Source: Candidatus Dojkabacteria bacterium
Lineage (GTDB): Bacteria; Patescibacteriota; Dojkabacteria; JAHIVN01
Assembly: GCA_028696515.1 (NCBI GenBank)
Contig: JAQVGX010000004.1
Span: forward strand, 1 to 36,706
Length of the DNA stretch: 36,706 nucleotides
Direction: 5' to 3'
Shown here in pieces: positions 2,352 through 33,483 of this stretch. Both the position numbers and the translations under genes were made by a program. Under the pieces are notes generated by a model that saw only the letters and a program-made list of their open reading frames with translations, searched no databases and was not told the origin of the DNA. How positions within the stretch are numbered: position 1 is the stretch's first letter; each line of letters opens with the position of its first letter.

Positions 2352-3324
2352 ATGTCAGAAGTACCATTTGATCCAGAAATAGTGAAAAGGAAAAAGCGTG
2401 ATACTGTGCCACTAGTGCCGGCACGTGAAACCTTGCCGGCTTCTTCTGCTGTTGAATTAGTTGCTGTGCCAGCTTCTGATTCAGATAAAGATCAAGTTCC
2501 TCCTGCTGAGGTAGAAGCGACTAGATCTATTCCTGAGACAGGTTCAGCCGTACCTATAGTGAATGAACCTATTAGACTCCCCGAATATATGCAAGCTAAT
2601 ACTTTCTTTGTTAGGGATCCAAATGGAGAAGTTCTTGAAGTTACAGATCCACGAGAGTTTACTCCAGAAATGATGCAGGCCTTAGAAAGAACAACCTTTA
2701 CAATTCACTATACTAGAGATATCGCTGTATCACGGATAGATTCAAGCAATGACCGGTTCTTTGCAAAACAAATAATCGGTGGAGCAAGAAAAGAGGTTAT
2801 TTTGTTCGTAGATAGAACTGAAAGGGTAGGGTGGGTTATGTATCTGGGAGCCAGAGGACAGCTCCTTTGTTATAGATCGCAATGTGTCTGTGAGAGTTGA
2901 TTTTACATACGAAGCTGTTCAACCCAAGTTAGATCAGAGGATAAAAGGCGTACACAGGTATCTGCCTGAATTTAGAGGGGCAGATATCGGAGTATTACCT
3001 AGTGACTTGGTCGAAGATAACTATTTAGCAATAATAGCAGATGGGTTGTTGTCTCTTCCTTATCGGGCAGTTGGATGGCTGGTATATGCTCTCAAGGCTG
3101 GATCTCTAGATTTTCTTGATCGGAAAGAGGATCATACAGGCAACAGGGGGTTCTGTATGTGGAACAAGAGACCGTATAAAGGTTTACTATCTTCAGTACC
3201 GATATTAAGATTCAAATGGTATAAATTGGGAAATGCTTTGCAAAGATTATTGCCTTTTAAAAGGATTCTCCTTCCGGGAATAAGTTGGGTAAGCTATGAA
3301 GAGATAGAGTTAAGTGCAGGGTAA
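2352..3324 (+). CDS. Hypothetical protein, apparently one gene split by a +1 frameshift (ORFs 2352-2900 and 2884-3324)
   Basis: Removing one G from the GGG at about 2846-2848 joins the frames as ..RVGWVMYLEPEDSSFVIDRNVSVRVDFTYEAV.. Confidence 0.6.
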
Positions 3325-3325
3325 C

Positions 3326-3979
3326 CTACAGTCTCTCGGCTGTAATCCTCAATTGTTCCATTGTTTTCCAAGTCTCTGCTTGATTAGCTCCATAAAGATT
3401 CTCTGCTATAGTAGAGATCCTTCTCTGATTTCCCCTTGGTATTTGGTGTCTTACTCGCTCAACGGCAGATAAAAACTGGCCAATTGTCGGGTAACTTTTC
3501 AGAATTGCTTCCGTAATACTCCCGCTATCGTCTGTATGGACGAGTTTCAATATGGGCAGGTTTTTTTCTATTTCTACCATTTTTGCAGTGCTTGCTACAG
3601 CTCTATAGTGGGCGCTATCCTTTGGAAGTTGGTCTGGTCTAGCTACTAGTTTTAGGATAAGGTTGCTTGCTATAGAGTATAATTCTCTGTTTTGAAGAAC
3701 TCTTATTGCAGATTCAACGGTTCTTTGTGAAAGAAGATCTGCTGATGGAATGGGTGACAACATATTTGGTGCAAGAGTATCTACTCCTGGTTCTAGGCTT
3801 GCTAAACAATAGGTTAACGCTCTTTCATACGGAGAAAGATTCTCGGGCTGCATTCGGCTCAAAGCTTTTTCGTAATCCTCAAGTCTTCGAGCTGCGGGAG
3901 CTCCTACAGCACTCCATACTGTATCTAAATCTATCATACTTAATCCAAATAAACCTGTGTTCCTATCCACTTTTGCCAC
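3326..3979 (-). CDS. Hypothetical protein
   Basis: 217-aa ORF on the same strand as the YhaM-like gene, overlapping its 3' end by 40 bp. Confidence 0.65.
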   Translation of the reverse strand: MAKVDRNTGLFGLSMIDLDTVWSAVGAPAARRLEDYEKALSRMQPENLSPYERALTYCLASLEPGVDTLAPNMLSPIPSADLLSQRTVESAIRVLQNRELYSIASNLILKLVARPDQLPKDSAHYRAVASTAKMVEIEKNLPILKLVHTDDSGSITEAILKSYPTIGQFLSAVERVRHQIPRGNQRRISTIAENLYGANQAETWKTMEQLRITAERL

Positions 3980-24085: not shown

Positions 24086-25456
24086 GTGAAAAAGTTAACA
24101 CCCACTATAATAATAGTTCTTTTTCTACTATCACTATTTCCTGTTCAATCAAATGCTCAGGAAACAAAGTCTGTAAGCCTTTATCCTTCTGCAGATGCAA
24201 CTGTTGTGGACATAAGTGGAACGAACTATGGATCTGAGGCGACTTTGAAATGTCAAAATGATGCAGCAACATTTGCCACTTTCCTTATAAAATTTGATCT
24301 TTCTACGATTCCATCAAATGCAACCGTTCAATCTGCAACCTTATCTTTAAACCTGAACGATACAAATGGCAGCACGGTTACCTTGAATGCGTATAAGGTT
24401 ACCTCTACCTGGTCAGAAACTTCTGTTAGCGGGTCCTCGAAACCAGGTATAGATTTGGGGGTGGTTTATGGGGCTCAATCCGTCGGGGGGAGTTTGGGGA
24501 AAATTACTTTCTCTCAGGACTTCTCGGATTTGGTTGAGAATTGGCTTTCAAATCCTGCACTTAACCAAGGTTTGTATTTTGAATCAACAAAGTCTGCTGA
24601 TTATGAACATGTCTTTGGCAGCAAGGAAAGTTCAATTAAACCAACTCTTGCAATGACATACTCAGTTCCAGATGAAAATCCTCCAGTTATTTCAGATATC
24701 AGTACGAGCTTTCTTACTCAGACATCAGTGATAATTGAGTGGAAAACTGACGAAGAAGCAACAAGTTTTGTAGAATATGGTGAAAACCTATCTTATGGAA
24801 AGATAGCCGGAAGCGGAGAGTATACATCAAATCATAGTGTCCTTCTTTCGGAGCTTGAGAGTAATACAAAGTATCATTTTAAGGTTACAAGCGAGGATGC
24901 TTACGGTAACAAGTCCGAATCAGCAGATACAACTTTTAAAACAAAGGCCAAAAAAGATCCGCAAGAAGAGGCAAAGACAGAGGAGAATGTTTCAGATGAA
25001 ATATATCCTCCTTCAGGTCTTAAAATTGTTACTGGGGTTGAAGATGAGAAGTACTATGCTGAACTAGGCTGGCAGCATTCTGTTACAGAGGAGATTGATG
25101 GATATCGAATTTATCGAAGTGAAGAAGATAGAACTTCTTACGTTTTTCTGACTGAAGTAGGAAATGATAAAACGAGTTACAAAGATTTTGAGGTCGAAGA
25201 TGGAAAAACATACTTTTATGTTCTCAGAACTGTCAAAGGAGAACTTGAATCAAAAGATTCAAACGAGGAAGTAATCACAATTTACGGACCAGATGGACAG
25301 CCGAAAGAGAAAGACTTCAGTTTCTGGAAAGGATTTACTATTGTAAATCTCACCTTGTGGCCTGTTTTGGCGATAGCTTATGTTTTATACAAAAGAAAAC
25401 GGCAAGGAAAAAACTTGAGATTTAGAGGAGTTGGGAACAAAGAAATAAGAAAATAG
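24086..25456 (+). CDS. Secreted, C-terminally membrane-anchored DNRLRE plus fibronectin type III protein
   Basis: Signal peptide; SVSLYPSADATVVDISGTNYGSEATLKC...FLIKFDLSTIPSNATVQSATLSL (DNRLRE); two FN3-like segments; C-terminal TM; GTG start with GGAG upstream. Confidence 0.8.
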   Translation: MKKLTPTIIIVLFLLSLFPVQSNAQETKSVSLYPSADATVVDISGTNYGSEATLKCQNDAATFATFLIKFDLSTIPSNATVQSATLSLNLNDTNGSTVTLNAYKVTSTWSETSVSGSSKPGIDLGVVYGAQSVGGSLGKITFSQDFSDLVENWLSNPALNQGLYFESTKSADYEHVFGSKESSIKPTLAMTYSVPDENPPVISDISTSFLTQTSVIIEWKTDEEATSFVEYGENLSYGKIAGSGEYTSNHSVLLSELESNTKYHFKVTSEDAYGNKSESADTTFKTKAKKDPQEEAKTEENVSDEIYPPSGLKIVTGVEDEKYYAELGWQHSVTEEIDGYRIYRSEEDRTSYVFLTEVGNDKTSYKDFEVEDGKTYFYVLRTVKGELESKDSNEEVITIYGPDGQPKEKDFSFWKGFTIVNLTLWPVLAIAYVLYKRKRQGKNLRFRGVGNKEIRK

Positions 25457-25780
25457 ATAGAAAGATAGTTTGTGCCACAGGCGCCTGCCTGTCGGCATAC
25501 AGGCACCCGCACATGGCAGGAGATAGTCAGATAGCTAGATGGTTATATGATTGACAGTTAGATATTGGAGATTGGTTGTTGCTAATTGATAGATGTATCT
25601 ATGCGCGGATAAATCTTCAAAAAAACTGCCCAACGAAATTAACTTACTTAGTTCACCGAATATACCGAATGCACCTAATATACATATCAACCACAAATAA
25701 CCTAGTAACAAAATGGTATGGATGGATGGATAGATAGTTAGACGGTTAGAGAATTAGATAGAAAAGTTGCTAGATGGAAA
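25451..25780. repeat. Low-complexity GATA/TAGA-rich intergenic region with GC-rich hairpin TGCCTGTCGGCATACAGGCA
   Basis: Hairpin TGCCTGT (25486-25492) / ACAGGCA (25499-25505); flanking degenerate GATAG/GGAT runs. Confidence 0.6.
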
Positions 25781-25783
25781 GGA

Positions 25784-28051
25784 TTACTTTACAAATTCCT
25801 TTATGATAGATTTTTTACTTTCGATCATTTCACCTATCTGTCCCTGATACAGTACTTTACCGCCATTTATTCCTCCTTTCGGGCCCAATTCAACTATCCA
25901 GTCTGCATTCTTGATCACCTCAATGTTATGTTCTACTATTATTATGGTGTTGCCTAAATCTACTATTTTGTGTACCAAAGACATCAGCTTGTCAATATCA
26001 TACATGTGAAGTCCGACAGTTGGCTCATCAAGGATCAGAAGATCTCCCTTATTGCCCAGATACTTACACAGTTTGATTCTTTGACATTCCCCGCCCGAGA
26101 GATGTGTAGCTTCCTGACCTATCTTCATGTAGCCCAGCCCGACTTCTTCCAGAAGTTTTGACTTTGCTAGAACTTCTTTTGAGCTAAATACTCGCTTCAA
26201 CTCATTGACTTGAAGAGCCATTATTTGAGCCATATCCAGCTCTTTATATCTAATATTTTCTAACACTTCCTTTTTATATCTTGTCCCCTTACACCTGCTG
26301 CATACTATTTCAACATCTTCCAGAAAGTTCATGTCAATCTTAATCAAGCCCTGTCCCTTACATTTATCGCAGCCGCCGATTGAGTTAAAAGAGAGGAGGG
26401 CTTTAGAGCAGTTGAGCTTTTTAGCTATTTCGTTTCTGATGCTGTCAAAAAGACCTGTGTATGTTGCCGGATTTGATCTGGAAGTTTTTCCGATAGATGT
26501 CTGATCGATAAGAACGGTTTGTGGAACTCTGCCCATAATTTCTTCTATTAGACTGCTTTTACCGGCTCCGGACGCTCCTACAATCAAATTAAGAGCATTT
26601 TGAGCTATTTTTACATCGATGTTCTTTAGGTTATTCTTCTTGAGATTGGAGAAGCTTATCAGCTTATTGGCTGATCGGCTTTGGCTCTTATTAGTTGAAG
26701 ACACGGATCCTTTAAGATATCTTGCTGTGAGGCTGTCCTGCTTCATAAATTCATTAGAGGAGCCACTAGCTACCACTTTCCCGCCGGCAAGACCTGCTTT
26801 AGGTCCTATATCTATGATAAAATCTGCACTTCTGATTACTTCTTTATCGTGTTCGACAACAATAACCGTGTTCCCCTTGTCCCTTAGTCTTCTTAACAGC
26901 CGTATGATTCTATCTATATCTCTCGGATGCATACCGATCGTTGGCTCATCTAGGATATAAAGCATTTCAACCAGATTGATACCGAGATGCTTAGCCAATT
27001 TAAGTCTTTGAGACTCTCCTCCTGATAGGGTAGGAATAGGCCTGTTAAGACTTAAGTATCCAAGCCCGATATCTATCAGCCGGCGGACTCTTTTTCGCAT
27101 TGAGCTGATGAGCTCTTGAGCCTGTTGGCTTCTGAGATTTGTAAGCAGGTCGTTCAGTTCATCTAGCGTAAGTGCAGCAATATCAGCAATATCCCGTCCT
27201 AGGATCTTTTTAGTTAGCGCCTTTTCACTTAAGAGCTTTCCATTACATTTCGGGCACTCTCTTCTAATGTACAAGTTCTTGTCATAGTCAAGTAGATCCC
27301 TATTTTTTTCCATTTTCCTGCCATCGCTTCTTTTTTTTAGTCTTTTGATCGACTTTACCATGCCCCTAAATGTTGAGTAAGATAGACCTCGTGCTTTATA
27401 TTCAGGAACTTGCACCTTTACGGGATCAGAGTAAAGTAGCAGATTCATTTCTTCTTTTGAGAAGTTCTTGAGCTTTTTATCCAAGTTAAAGAAGCCGGTA
27501 GCTTTCAATATCTTGATACCAAAGCTATCGGGAGACAGTCTTTTCCAAAGAACTCCTCCTTCATTTATTGATCTGTTCAGATCGAGCAGATTACCAATAT
27601 TTACTTCTAGAATGAAGCCCAAACCCTTGCATTTGGGGCAGGCTCCTTTAGGGTTGTTGTACGAGAAGTGGCCGGCACTAAGCCTTGGTCTGTCAGGAGT
27701 TGATATTCTTGAGAATAAAAGTCTTAGATAAGTATAGATCTCGCTGTATGTGCCTACTGTTGAGCGAGGGTTGTTGCCAAGTCTTTTTTGCTCGATTGCA
27801 ATAGACGGAGAGAGTCCTGAGATTGATCGAACTTTCGGCTTTTTCATTTTGACAAAGTCTTTCCGTGAATAAGTTGAGATTGACTCAAGATATTCAAGCT
27901 GTGCCTGGGCAAATATTGTGTCAAAGGCCAAGCTTGTCTTGCCGGATCCGGATAAGCCCGTAATGACAGTAACCTTATTTCTTGGGATGTCGATATCGAT
28001 ACTTTTTAAATTGTTAGTGCAGACTCCTCGAAGGGAGATGTAGTTGTTCAT
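25784..28051 (-). CDS. uvrA: UvrA-like ABC ATPase, short UvrA2-type (755 aa)
   Basis: Walker A GLSGSGKTSLAFDTIFAQ and GASGAGKSSLIEEI; signatures LSGGESQRLKLAKHLG and LSGGECQRIKLCKYLG; zinc motifs CPKC, CDKC/CSRC. Shorter than canonical UvrA. Confidence 0.9.
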   Translation of the reverse strand: MNNYISLRGVCTNNLKSIDIDIPRNKVTVITGLSGSGKTSLAFDTIFAQAQLEYLESISTYSRKDFVKMKKPKVRSISGLSPSIAIEQKRLGNNPRSTVGTYSEIYTYLRLLFSRISTPDRPRLSAGHFSYNNPKGACPKCKGLGFILEVNIGNLLDLNRSINEGGVLWKRLSPDSFGIKILKATGFFNLDKKLKNFSKEEMNLLLYSDPVKVQVPEYKARGLSYSTFRGMVKSIKRLKKRSDGRKMEKNRDLLDYDKNLYIRRECPKCNGKLLSEKALTKKILGRDIADIAALTLDELNDLLTNLRSQQAQELISSMRKRVRRLIDIGLGYLSLNRPIPTLSGGESQRLKLAKHLGINLVEMLYILDEPTIGMHPRDIDRIIRLLRRLRDKGNTVIVVEHDKEVIRSADFIIDIGPKAGLAGGKVVASGSSNEFMKQDSLTARYLKGSVSSTNKSQSRSANKLISFSNLKKNNLKNIDVKIAQNALNLIVGASGAGKSSLIEEIMGRVPQTVLIDQTSIGKTSRSNPATYTGLFDSIRNEIAKKLNCSKALLSFNSIGGCDKCKGQGLIKIDMNFLEDVEIVCSRCKGTRYKKEVLENIRYKELDMAQIMALQVNELKRVFSSKEVLAKSKLLEEVGLGYMKIGQEATHLSGGECQRIKLCKYLGNKGDLLILDEPTVGLHMYDIDKLMSLVHKIVDLGNTIIIVEHNIEVIKNADWIVELGPKGGINGGKVLYQGQIGEMIESKKSIIKEFVK

Positions 28052-28120: not shown

Positions 28121-28151
28121 ATTATAGAGTATGACGTAACGTTATAGTCAA
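28121..28151 (-). promoter_or_regulatory. MerR-type promoter with 19-bp spacer, driving the UvrA2-like gene
   Basis: Minus strand TTGACT (28151-28146) - ATAACGTTACGTCATACTC (19 bp) - TATAAT (28126-28121). Confidence 0.75.
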
Positions 28152-28222
28152 GGGGATAGATTAAAAGTCAAAGACTAAATCTCAAATCCGATTTGGAAAT
28201 CGCCTATTAAAACTCAGGACTC

Positions 28223-28936
28223 TCACAGTTTCTGTAATCGAGTCTTTCTGCTCTGGTAAGTATTATCTACATTCAGCTTAAAATCCAAACAAAAGTTAAT
28301 TCCCGTAACGGTTCCTAGCCAGAGTCTACTCTGATATGCTACATTGCCTTCTGCATAGTTTATGAAAATGCTTCGATTACCAGAAAAAGTTTCATGACAA
28401 ACGGTTTCCAATTCATCGAACTGAAAAGATGTATTTAAACAGATGTGAATGTGGGGAAGCCAGTAATTTGTTGACAGGATAGAAGGGCCAATTTGTATAG
28501 GCAAAAATTCTATCATTGGTTTATCAGTATCGCCGGCAAATAACCAGGTAGAATTATCGGCAGATTTCATTATATAGAGATCTATCTTTGTTTTTCGACT
28601 GCTGGATTTTAACGTAGCTAGTTCTTGTTTCGCAGAATTTACCTTGTAGCAAAACCCTATGTGATCAAGGCTCAATATATGGGGAGAGCATTTTTGGAGA
28701 AACCCTTTAAAATGTTGTGGATTGCAAAGAGCATTTGAAAGGTTATTTCTGTATTTCATCAATCTCCCAGAGGATATGGTTAATTTGATAGAGTTTGATC
28801 TCACTATCATCAAGGTTTTACTCTCTGATTCTATTACTATCTGCCCGTTTTTGATATTTGAATCAACTCTATCTAGGATCATTAGAGGTTTTAAGAGAGA
28901 TATGACTTCTATTAGTGAATTGATTTTTATGTTCAT
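28223..28936 (-). CDS. Uncharacterised protein, possibly VOC/glyoxalase-like fold
   Basis: 237 aa from ATG at 28936 (the ORF track start at 28990 lies upstream of the promoter). LSLDHIGFCYKV...STWLFAGDTDKPMIEFLPI...WLPHIHICL is weakly VOC-like. Confidence 0.55.
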   Translation of the reverse strand: MNIKINSLIEVISLLKPLMILDRVDSNIKNGQIVIESESKTLMIVRSNSIKLTISSGRLMKYRNNLSNALCNPQHFKGFLQKCSPHILSLDHIGFCYKVNSAKQELATLKSSSRKTKIDLYIMKSADNSTWLFAGDTDKPMIEFLPIQIGPSILSTNYWLPHIHICLNTSFQFDELETVCHETFSGNRSIFINYAEGNVAYQSRLWLGTVTGINFCLDFKLNVDNTYQSRKTRLQKL

Positions 28937-28944
28937 TAATGGGA

Positions 28945-28975
28945 ATGATAATATATAACGTAACGTTGTAGTCAA
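28945..28975 (-). promoter_or_regulatory. Second MerR-type promoter with 19-bp spacer, driving the 28223-28936 gene
   Basis: Minus strand TTGACT (28975-28970) - ACAACGTTACGTTATATAT (19 bp) - TATCAT (28950-28945); shares CAACGTTACGT/TAACGTTACGT core with the uvrA promoter. Confidence 0.72.
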
Positions 28976-29064: not shown

Positions 29065-29084
29065 TGGTTCATTGCGTTATCATT

Positions 29085-29927
29085 ATGAACAATCTTCTTT
29101 TAGCCGGAGAATTTGCTAGGCTTGCCCGAACTACCAAGCGGACTGTTATCTGGTATGATCAAAAGGGGATTCTTGAGCCTTATAAAACTCTTGAAAATGG
29201 CTACAGGTACTATGTACCAAGGCAGATTATAGACTATCAGGTAGTTTCACTTCTTAGACAATTGAACTTCTCAATTAGCGATATACAGCTGTTTCTTAAG
29301 AATTCCAAGTCACTTAAAACTTTGTTCAAAACGAAAAGGAACTTGATAAGTGGCGAACTTAAGAAACTTCGTCTAAAGCTGAATTCTATTGAGGAGTATT
29401 ATCGAAATTTAGAAGGAGGGGATTTGCTAGTTAAACCTAAAATTGTGGCCGTGAAACAATGCTTAGTTATCTATTTTGATCGAATGGGATCTTATGCAAA
29501 AATTAAAGACTACTGTCTTGAACTCAAAGATATGATCGGCGCTAGAGTAGCTAAAATGGGGCTATTTTACACGGCGTTCTATGAGAGGGCTTACCGGCCG
29601 AAAAATGCTAAGATGCAGATAGGCCTGAAGGTTGGGGGCGGAGAGGAGAGGGCAGTACAACGGTTATTGAACGATTTTAGAACAATTGCAGGACTGCATT
29701 TCGCTACTGTTCCTTCACATAAAGCCTTAGTCCATATTCACAGAGGTTCCGGCCGGTTCAACTCTTTACTTTGGAATCACTTGGCTACTTTTATGAAAAG
29801 GAAAAAGCTTCTGCCACATCCAGATATTCTTCATAGAGAAATATATAATAAGACATCTCTCAATGGATATCCTGATGAAGATGAGCATGTATTTGAGCTG
29901 CAAAGACCGTTGACAACGAAACAGTAA
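29085..29927 (+). CDS. MerR-family transcriptional regulator with GyrI-like effector-binding C-terminus
   Basis: LAGEFARLARTTKRTVIWYDQKGILEPYKTLENGYRYYVPRQI (MerR HTH); C-terminal ..NGYPDEDEHVFELQRPL resembles GyrI-like domain. Confidence 0.85.
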   Translation: MNNLLLAGEFARLARTTKRTVIWYDQKGILEPYKTLENGYRYYVPRQIIDYQVVSLLRQLNFSISDIQLFLKNSKSLKTLFKTKRNLISGELKKLRLKLNSIEEYYRNLEGGDLLVKPKIVAVKQCLVIYFDRMGSYAKIKDYCLELKDMIGARVAKMGLFYTAFYERAYRPKNAKMQIGLKVGGGEERAVQRLLNDFRTIAGLHFATVPSHKALVHIHRGSGRFNSLLWNHLATFMKRKKLLPHPDILHREIYNKTSLNGYPDEDEHVFELQRPLTTKQ

Positions 29928-31209: not shown

Positions 31210-33483
31210 TTAGTATACGACAACTCCGGTGTGGCCGAAATAACTCCAGAATACGTTGAATTGGGCAACTGTGTGCGTACGTCGTCCTCTCCAGGGGTCA
31301 TTTGTGATGATGTGTGTAGGATTGCTTGAAGGTCCGATGAAGCCGACTGCAACTTCCGAGTGCATTCCATTTATCGCATAGATACTTGTTCCGCCAGGGG
31401 TTTTCCAAGATTTATCGTAGGGGGATGACCAGCCGTTTTGTCCCCAGACAACTGCCGGGTGTCCTTTTTCAATCTCTTTGGCTAATTGTGAAACACTCCA
31501 GCCAGAGAAGACCTGGTTGGATACTCCCCGGCCACTGATATATGAAGATACTGGCCCCCAGTAAACACCATAACCGCCACAGTCTCCCGTCCCATCTATG
31601 CTGCCAACATAGCCGCTATGAGGATTTCCCCAAACAGTGATCTTCCCGGTTGCGTCTTTTTTACAGACTGTATTATCTTTTGCTATGCCGCTGTAGACTG
31701 ACATTTCACTGGCCGAAACTCCCTTGTATCCCAGCACCATGGCAGCAGCTGTAATATTGCAAGTAAATGCATGTGTTTGGTAATACTGCGGAACATTGAG
31801 GATAACGGTTTGATGCTCTGTAGTGAAGATTAATGAGAAGTTTGATGCAGAATCAAGCCCGTAAACTGTTTTGACACCTGCACCTATTGTAACTGTATAT
31901 GTTGTGCTGTATCTCAAATTGGATGAAGGATTGAAGATCATAGTGTTTCCATTCCAGCTGAAAGCTCCTGCAACTGAGGGACTGATGGAGAACTTTCCCT
32001 GTGCAGAAGTTCTGTCTACAGCCTGATCAAATGTCACGTTGATATTTGTGCCAACACTTATTCCGGATGAGTTGTAATAGGGATTCCATCCAACTACCTT
32101 GACTTTCCCTATAGTATCGAATGAGTAGTTTATTTTCTCTTCAGTCAATCCTCCAGCCTGACTTCGAATTCCTTTTGCAAGTGCAATCTCGTAATGAGTT
32201 TCTTTATTTAGGGTAGTGGGCTGAAAAATAAAGGTCTTTTCATCATCCCATTTTTTCTCCCCAGCGATTTCCGGTTTTATCGAGAAATTTTCTTCAACGG
32301 ATTCTTTGACCATTGGACGATCAAAGATGATTTTTACAAAATCATCGGGCATAATTCCTGCTCCCTCGGGGTAGAGGGATTTAATCAGTGGTGGGGTAAC
32401 GGTTTTAAACGTGATAGTTTTGATATGTTGCCTTTCTCCTCTTTTTTGTATTTGTCCGCTTTCCAAATTCGTTGTAACTGGAGACTGGTAAATCTTCAAC
32501 TTGTAGTCTTTCCCCTGCTTTAATGGTTCTGATAGGTGTAATTTGACTTCATTTGAGTATTCTCTAACCTGTTCGTATTGCACATCTCTATTAAATTCAA
32601 AATCCCATTCTACATAGTAGCCATCATTTTGGTTCAACAACAAAACTATATCGTTCTCGACTGGAACATCTGTTGCCTTATCTAGCGGAGCAGTGTCTAT
32701 GATTCCTGGTAGAGTGAGAGACTCTAGCGTTATCAGGTGCTCGCTATTTGCATAGGTTTCAAAGTAATTATTCAAATCAGTCAGGTATATCATTACCTTA
32801 TCACCCGGCATGATTGTTTCTTTAGGATAAAATTTAACTTTTCTATAGAATGGAAGAAAAGAGAAGCTCTTCTCAAATACCCAGTCCCCATCTGTTTCGG
32901 GTGCCATGTTGATGATCAAATCTTGTTTGTTGATAGGTCCGTCAAAAACTATCTCTAGGGGTCTGCGAAAGTCATCCCAGACCTCGGTTTCCTTTGGATA
33001 AAGAACTGTAAAATTGGGATAAGCAAGTGCGTATTTTTTGGCTATCGCAAAGATCGAGATTAGAAAGAAAAGATTTATGAGAATAAATTTGCCAGCAAGA
33101 ATTGATAAATAGGGGAGGCGAAGCTTGTAATTCAAAAATCTAAACTCCGAACCACCATTTGTTGAATCACTGGTGTAAGCTGTAATATTGATCATTCTTC
33201 TCAGTAGAATCTTGATTTTGTGGTGTATTTTTTCGAATAAGTTTGATGGCAATAATTCGGGCTCAATTTTGCAGGAGGCTGTTTTGTTGCGCTTTGATAA
33301 GATCTCGGCATATATAAGTCTTACCAATTCTCTAGAGTTGAAAAGGAGCAGAAGGAATAAAATATAGATAATAGCTATAGTTGCGAGTTCAAATTTATAC
33401 TGTTCAAGCGTCTTGCTAAAATGGCTTACGAAAGCCGGAAAGACTTGAGCGGTGAGTTTTAGGTTTATGAACAGGTTGTGCAC
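31210..33483 (-). CDS. Membrane-anchored protein with SbsA/Big_5 Ig-like repeats and C-terminal C39-like peptidase domain
   Basis: Two N-terminal TMs; repeated VKIIFDRPMVKESVEENFSIKP / INVTFDQAVDRTSAQGKFSISP; C-terminal VPQYYQTHAFTCNITAAAMVLGYKG, MHSEVAVGF, ITNDPW. Confidence 0.82.
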   Translation of the reverse strand: MHNLFINLKLTAQVFPAFVSHFSKTLEQYKFELATIAIIYILFLLLLFNSRELVRLIYAEILSKRNKTASCKIEPELLPSNLFEKIHHKIKILLRRMINITAYTSDSTNGGSEFRFLNYKLRLPYLSILAGKFILINLFFLISIFAIAKKYALAYPNFTVLYPKETEVWDDFRRPLEIVFDGPINKQDLIINMAPETDGDWVFEKSFSFLPFYRKVKFYPKETIMPGDKVMIYLTDLNNYFETYANSEHLITLESLTLPGIIDTAPLDKATDVPVENDIVLLLNQNDGYYVEWDFEFNRDVQYEQVREYSNEVKLHLSEPLKQGKDYKLKIYQSPVTTNLESGQIQKRGERQHIKTITFKTVTPPLIKSLYPEGAGIMPDDFVKIIFDRPMVKESVEENFSIKPEIAGEKKWDDEKTFIFQPTTLNKETHYEIALAKGIRSQAGGLTEEKINYSFDTIGKVKVVGWNPYYNSSGISVGTNINVTFDQAVDRTSAQGKFSISPSVAGAFSWNGNTMIFNPSSNLRYSTTYTVTIGAGVKTVYGLDSASNFSLIFTTEHQTVILNVPQYYQTHAFTCNITAAAMVLGYKGVSASEMSVYSGIAKDNTVCKKDATGKITVWGNPHSGYVGSIDGTGDCGGYGVYWGPVSSYISGRGVSNQVFSGWSVSQLAKEIEKGHPAVVWGQNGWSSPYDKSWKTPGGTSIYAINGMHSEVAVGFIGPSSNPTHIITNDPWRGRRTHTVAQFNVFWSYFGHTGVVVY

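Follow-up and report, generated by a model that had tools for sequence, protein, structure and literature searches.

UvrA2-like proteins guard antibiotic producers against their own DNA-binding drugs. One of them, Ecm16, lacks the UvrB-binding domain and confers echinomycin resistance independently of UvrA, UvrB, UvrC, and UvrD (PMC10192343). Among regulators of the MerR family, EcmrR activates promoters with 19-bp spacers by kinking and under-twisting the spacer, and this activation is boosted by drugs bound at its GyrI-like domain (PMC8113463). Promoter DNA is distorted by BmrR in a like manner (PMC7722741). In metal-responsive MerR-family sites the dyad center keeps a fixed distance to the -35 box (PMC1526738, PMC5045206), with 7 bp for odd sites, including the 21-bp sites of the family, and 8 bp for even ones (PMC5045206).

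The window analyzed here, a 36,706-nucleotide stretch of a Candidatus Dojkabacteria genome, contains a locus in which these two themes meet. A MerR regulator gene (29085-29927, plus strand) is separated from a UvrA2-like gene (25784-28051, minus strand) by a third gene (28223-28936, minus strand), and there is a MerR-type promoter/operator in front of each of the two minus-strand genes. These two genes very probably constitute a ligand-activated MerR regulon, and the regulatory logic that joins MerR, its site, and UvrA2 is strongly supported by comparison among relatives. Sequence comparison supplies the promoter geometry, the dyad, the protein families, and the joint inheritance of UvrA2 with MerR and the site; binding, activation, the class of ligand, and the activity of UvrA2 are what we infer.

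The closest counterparts of the regulator and its promoters were EcmrR of E. coli and BmrR of B. subtilis. The protein matched both profiles over its full length (E 7e-21 for EcmrR, about 1e-10 for BmrR) and has a C-terminal fold of the same GyrI-like kind, and the target promoters are alike in having a 19-bp spacer with a pseudo-palindrome between the boxes. The target is unlike, being a UvrA2 gene here and an efflux pump in the case of bmr, and the bmr operator half-site differs from the operator half-site found here. A mechanism of the EcmrR/BmrR type is the most economical reading of the locus. The metal-responsive divergons of CueR, CadR, and MerR are similar in that the regulator adjoins its target and a palindrome lies in a 19-20-bp spacer, but their C-terminal domain is a short metal-binding loop whereas the one found here is GyrI-like, and both the target and the operator sequence differ. 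TipA-class regulators (TipAL, SkgA, and Mta) were matched in the HTH. The tipA operator has a ACGTNACGT core like that of the operator found here, which is a lead only, and the C-terminal TipAS domain of this class is all-helical, not GyrI-like.

The first-pass annotation of this DNA had described two promoters with TTGACT -35 boxes, 19-bp spacers, and dyad symmetry, and had proposed that they define a small regulon. Both promoters were found exactly where it had placed them, on the minus strand. The first, in front of the uvrA2-like gene (28121-28151), has its -35 TTGACT at 28146-28151, its 19-bp spacer at 28127-28145, its -10 TATAAT at 28121-28126, and its dyad at 28130-28146, centered on 28138. 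The second, in front of the 28223-28936 gene (28945-28975), has its -35 TTGACT at 28970-28975, its 19-bp spacer at 28951-28969, its -10 TATCAT at 28945-28950, and its dyad at 28954-28970. Each site contains an imperfect dyad of 17 bp, TATAACGT-N-ACGTTATA, with its center at a distance of 7 bp from the -35 box, and in site 2 the core of this dyad is perfect over 11 bp (AACGT-T-ACGTT). Site 2 also contains a second -10-like hexamer, TATTAT, at a 16-bp spacer. Only 8 nt separate the end of its -10 box from the ATG of the 28223-28936 gene, so the transcript should have no leader or a very short one.

When up to 3 mismatches were allowed, TTGACTAYAACGTTACGTYATA had 2 matches in the window, compared with 0.00 expected in shuffles, and the same 2 were the only matches across the whole assembly, which is a draft of 1.64 Mb in 128 contigs. 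This agrees with the proposal of a small regulon, although the assembly is 86% complete and additional targets may therefore be missing from it. A third match in the genome, to a looser core on contig 15, fell inside a peptidase ORF and was discarded as a chance occurrence.

The anatomy of the promoter was compared over 18 distinct sites, taken from 17 related MerR loci and one outgroup. The 19-bp spacer was present in all 18, and in all 18 the best -10 hexamer, alone or tied, was found at 19 bp, where the mean match to TATAAT was 5.1 of 6 positions, compared with 3.4 or less at the other spacings. The dyad was odd-centered and 7 bp from the -35 box, which fits the MerR-family rule. The dyad symmetry was confirmed: offsets 1-4 and 6-8 from the center were complementary in 15 to 18 of the 18 sites, and offset 5 was variable (complementary in 9 of 18). 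The 19-bp register of site 2 is the register kept in every relative, despite the alternative -10 at 16 bp.

The 29085-29927 protein is, on family and fold comparison, a MerR-family regulator of the EcmrR/BmrR-like kind with a GyrI-like domain of the multidrug-binding type. Its N-terminal winged HTH matched PF13411 and PF00376 above the cut-off, as it did in all 17 members of the family. The C-terminus of the window protein was below detection for PF06445 (GyrI-like), and a GyrI-like domain was matched in 15 of the 17 aligned members (best E 6.9e-12). In the predicted structure (mean pLDDT 88), a long dimerization helix (residues 77-112) is followed by an alpha/beta domain. The model matched EcmrR and BmrR along its entire chain, and for the C-terminal domain taken separately the matches were CtaZ, GyrI, and the corresponding domain of EcmrR (target TM values of 0.75-0.79).

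The UvrA2-like (class II UvrA) gene encodes a protein of 755 amino acids with both ABC modules present. Positions 2-119 and 262-919 of the UvrA model were matched in one reading frame and positions 120-261 were absent; because the UvrB-binding domain falls within this missing segment, the product was classified as a UvrA2-like protein without the UvrB-binding region. The UvrA2 structure in the PDB (2vf7) was matched from residue 3. The genome also has a canonical UvrA, encoded elsewhere, on contig 106 (1346 bits). Ecm16 and DrrC of Streptomyces self-resistance, and UvrA2 of D. radiodurans, are likewise UvrA paralogues of about 750-790 amino acids that lack the UvrB-binding region. Unlike them, the protein described here belongs to Patescibacteria, has a MerR partner, and has no recognized antibiotic cluster alongside. 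Since Ecm16 protects against echinomycin independently of UvrB, the predicted output of UvrA2 here is protection against DNA-binding compounds, and by this analogy a role specifically in protecting DNA from bound drugs stands at an even chance.

The distribution of the system was examined in a class panel of 87 genomes, a phylum panel of 381 genomes, and the GTDB collection, which yielded 16 Patescibacteria MerR loci, four of them the same records as panel genomes. Together the panels and the GTDB collection gave 17 distinct MerR loci, including the window, which were aligned. The 19-bp-spacer site was present at all 17, and at 16 of them it lay 5' of uvrA2, which was the divergent or nearby target. 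These loci ranged from the same genus through other families and candidate phyla of Patescibacteria, and included Beckwith-, Roizman-, Ames-, Woese-, Gottesman-, and Shapirobacteria, WWE3, and Saccharibacteria. The one exception was a Saccharibacteria locus (YM_S32, L030 3305-6825), where MerR and the site face an ABC-2 exporter operon that encodes two permeases together with an ATPase. In proposing a MerR-activated UvrA2 regulon, the first-pass annotation had allowed that a motif missing upstream of orthologues would count against it, and had suggested scanning for the motif in the genome and in relatives. The proposal is supported by both comparisons, which gave two sites in the genome and a site in relatives with MerR, that is, at every one of the 17 loci. 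Its identification of the adjacent MerR as one with a GyrI-like domain was likewise borne out, by the family match in 15 of 17 members and by fold.

Within the class panel, this MerR was found in 3 of 87 genomes and the strict promoter pattern, with its 19-bp spacer, matched exactly the same 3. Two other genomes of the class (G011 and G045) have UvrA2 genes without MerR, and the site was absent from both. In the phylum panel, MerR was found in the window genome, two other UvrA2-linked genomes, and one distant outgroup, and the promoter pattern matched 3 of the 381 genomes, namely the window genome and the two UvrA2-linked ones. Over both panels, the strict motif patterns matched only five genomes, all of which had this MerR. 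The outgroup, G419, has at its MerR a related 19-bp site, which stands in front of an unrelated gene that has no Pfam family. Sequence distances of MerR and UvrA2 were correlated across 14 loci (Spearman rho 0.67, a value reached by 3 of 2000 permutations), which is consistent with co-inheritance of the two genes. Matches to the MerR search from Paenibacillus (L045-L049) were confined to the HTH and had neither UvrA2 nor the site, and were set aside.

Motif matches were also found in IMG/VR viral contigs, beside other MerR genes in 3 of 4 cases, which indicates that the ACGTNACGT core is common to a broader MerR subgroup rather than exclusive to UvrA2. Viral sites with this core and a 19-bp spacer, each beside another MerR gene, were located at L050 4705-4735, L051 1290-1320, and L053 6665-6695.

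In the window strain the gene between merR and uvrA2 encodes a protein of 237 amino acids without a Pfam family, under its own copy of the site. A low-confidence model (mean pLDDT 62) had the topology of paired beta-alpha-beta-beta-beta modules (double VOC), and the top fold matches were proteins of the VOC (glyoxalase/bleomycin-resistance) superfamily, at marginal scores (best E 5e-4, target TM about 0.5 or below); assignment of a function from this fold was dropped because the fold is too uncertain. Homologues were found in WWE3 (29%) and in a genome of the same family (25%). The WWE3 homologue (L034) is at the same place and has its own 19-bp site, so the two-promoter arrangement also occurs outside the window. 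The corresponding position in the sister genome G031 is occupied by a short-chain dehydrogenase and a transglutaminase-like gene, again under their own copy of the site.

At the WWE3 locus (L034 1688-5145), the MerR-linked uvrA2 has been broken in two through insertion of a transposase (ORFs 2727-3563 and 3584-3895), and both operators and the accessory gene are still present despite the interruption. After uvrA2 in the same locus (758-1695) are a stand-alone protein weakly matching Cass2, a GyrI-like relative, and a DinB-superfamily protein, which are possibly further members of the same response. In the window, the locus is flanked by large predicted surface proteins (24086-25456 and 31210-33483) with CBM96, fibronectin III, Big_5, and C39-peptidase-like domains. 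The intergenic region downstream of uvrA2 (25450-25790) contains many short degenerate repeats of the GATA/GTTAGA type, and similar AGCTAACTATCCA-type repeats are found in the uvrA2 leader of G031 (L011 11485-11540).

The stretch upstream of merR in the window (29071-29084, plus strand) has, on comparison by eye, a degenerate half-site, GCGTTAT, and a -10-like TATCAT beside the ATG. In G031 a full dyad (ATTACGTTACGTTAT) is found upstream of merR, and in the window strain, where 110 bp lie between merR and the nearest site, it has decayed to the half-site, so autoregulation may be weakened in this strain. At 14 loci with a compact divergent layout, a hexamer (TATAGT in most) was found 4-9 nt before the start codon of merR, and its reverse complement corresponds to the inner part of the -35 region together with the dyad arm. 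From this spacing, the merR promoter appears to be embedded in the operator in the relatives. Read on one strand, the shared bases would be the -35 box of uvrA2; read on the opposite strand, they would be the -10 box of merR, transcribed without a leader. At such compact loci occupancy of the operator would thereby repress merR.

Three other explanations of these observations were considered. The AT-rich and repetitive intergenic regions of this genome might suggest that the two sites resemble each other by chance or through low complexity, with no regulatory meaning, but the motif has an expectation of zero in shuffles, is unique in the genome, and is kept across divergent families only where this MerR is present; chance resemblance of the sites was therefore rejected as wildly improbable. 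It is also improbable, to a lesser degree, that the uvrA2 site alone is a MerR target and that site 2, an ordinary promoter whose -10 is the TATTAT at 16 bp, owes its resemblance to that site to duplication. The 16-bp hexamer would be a usable -10, and the 28223-28936 gene is missing from most relatives, but the WWE3 homologue has its own 19-bp site in the same place, G031 carries a site before a different adjacent operon, and the core dyad of site 2 is perfect.

A third explanation, unlikely but with a real share of probability, is that MerR mainly represses, or that its signal is not a drug but, for example, a metabolite or a product of DNA damage, in which case UvrA2 would serve stress or repair in general rather than xenobiotic protection. 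GyrI-like domains do differ in ligand, and the short-chain dehydrogenase and transglutaminase-like gene under the site in G031 are not classic drug-resistance genes. The nearest structural relatives, however, bind multiple drugs or antibiotics: EcmrR, BmrR, CtaZ (closthioamide), and STM3175, which is albicidin-binding (PMC10414762). In addition, the regulator drives an ABC-2 exporter in one relative (L030), and the 19-bp spacer was strictly kept at all sites, which implies activation because pure repression is not expected to constrain spacer length.

For a ligand-activated MerR regulon, the following course of events would be expected. The MerR footprint would cover TATAACGTTACGT(C/T)ATA at 28121-28151 and 28945-28975. 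A hydrophobic and probably cationic or DNA-binding compound would fill the GyrI-like domain, and the ligand-bound dimer would kink and untwist the spacer in the fashion of EcmrR and BmrR. Both promoters would then fire, giving UvrA2 and, in the window strain, the VOC-like 28223-28936 protein. Like Ecm16 or DrrC, UvrA2 would most likely work independently of the UvrBC nuclease, either clearing drug-DNA complexes or protecting against them. The locus, as read from its sequence, thus predicts that chemical exposure switches on a UvrA-like DNA-protection protein. The regulator and the promoter are of a known kind; searches of the literature that paired MerR with UvrA2, or a GyrI-like domain with UvrA and MerR, returned nothing relevant and yielded no paper tying expression of a UvrA2-like protein to a sensor. 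The pairing of a GyrI-like MerR with UvrA2 is the part that these searches did not find described.

A wider reading, with about an even chance of being right, is that a xenobiotic-inducible, UvrB-independent DNA-protection module occurs across Patescibacteria, consisting of a GyrI-like MerR and UvrA2, with accessory genes under copies of the operator and with the -35 of uvrA2 doubling as the -10 of a leaderless merR in most relatives. The regulon is a computationally well-supported one in a phylum for which gene regulation has received little study. Genes recruited as accessories to this operator suggest that further functions are directed against compounds of the same class, and the conserved MerR sensor and operator make the function of UvrA2 directly testable by an inducer screen.
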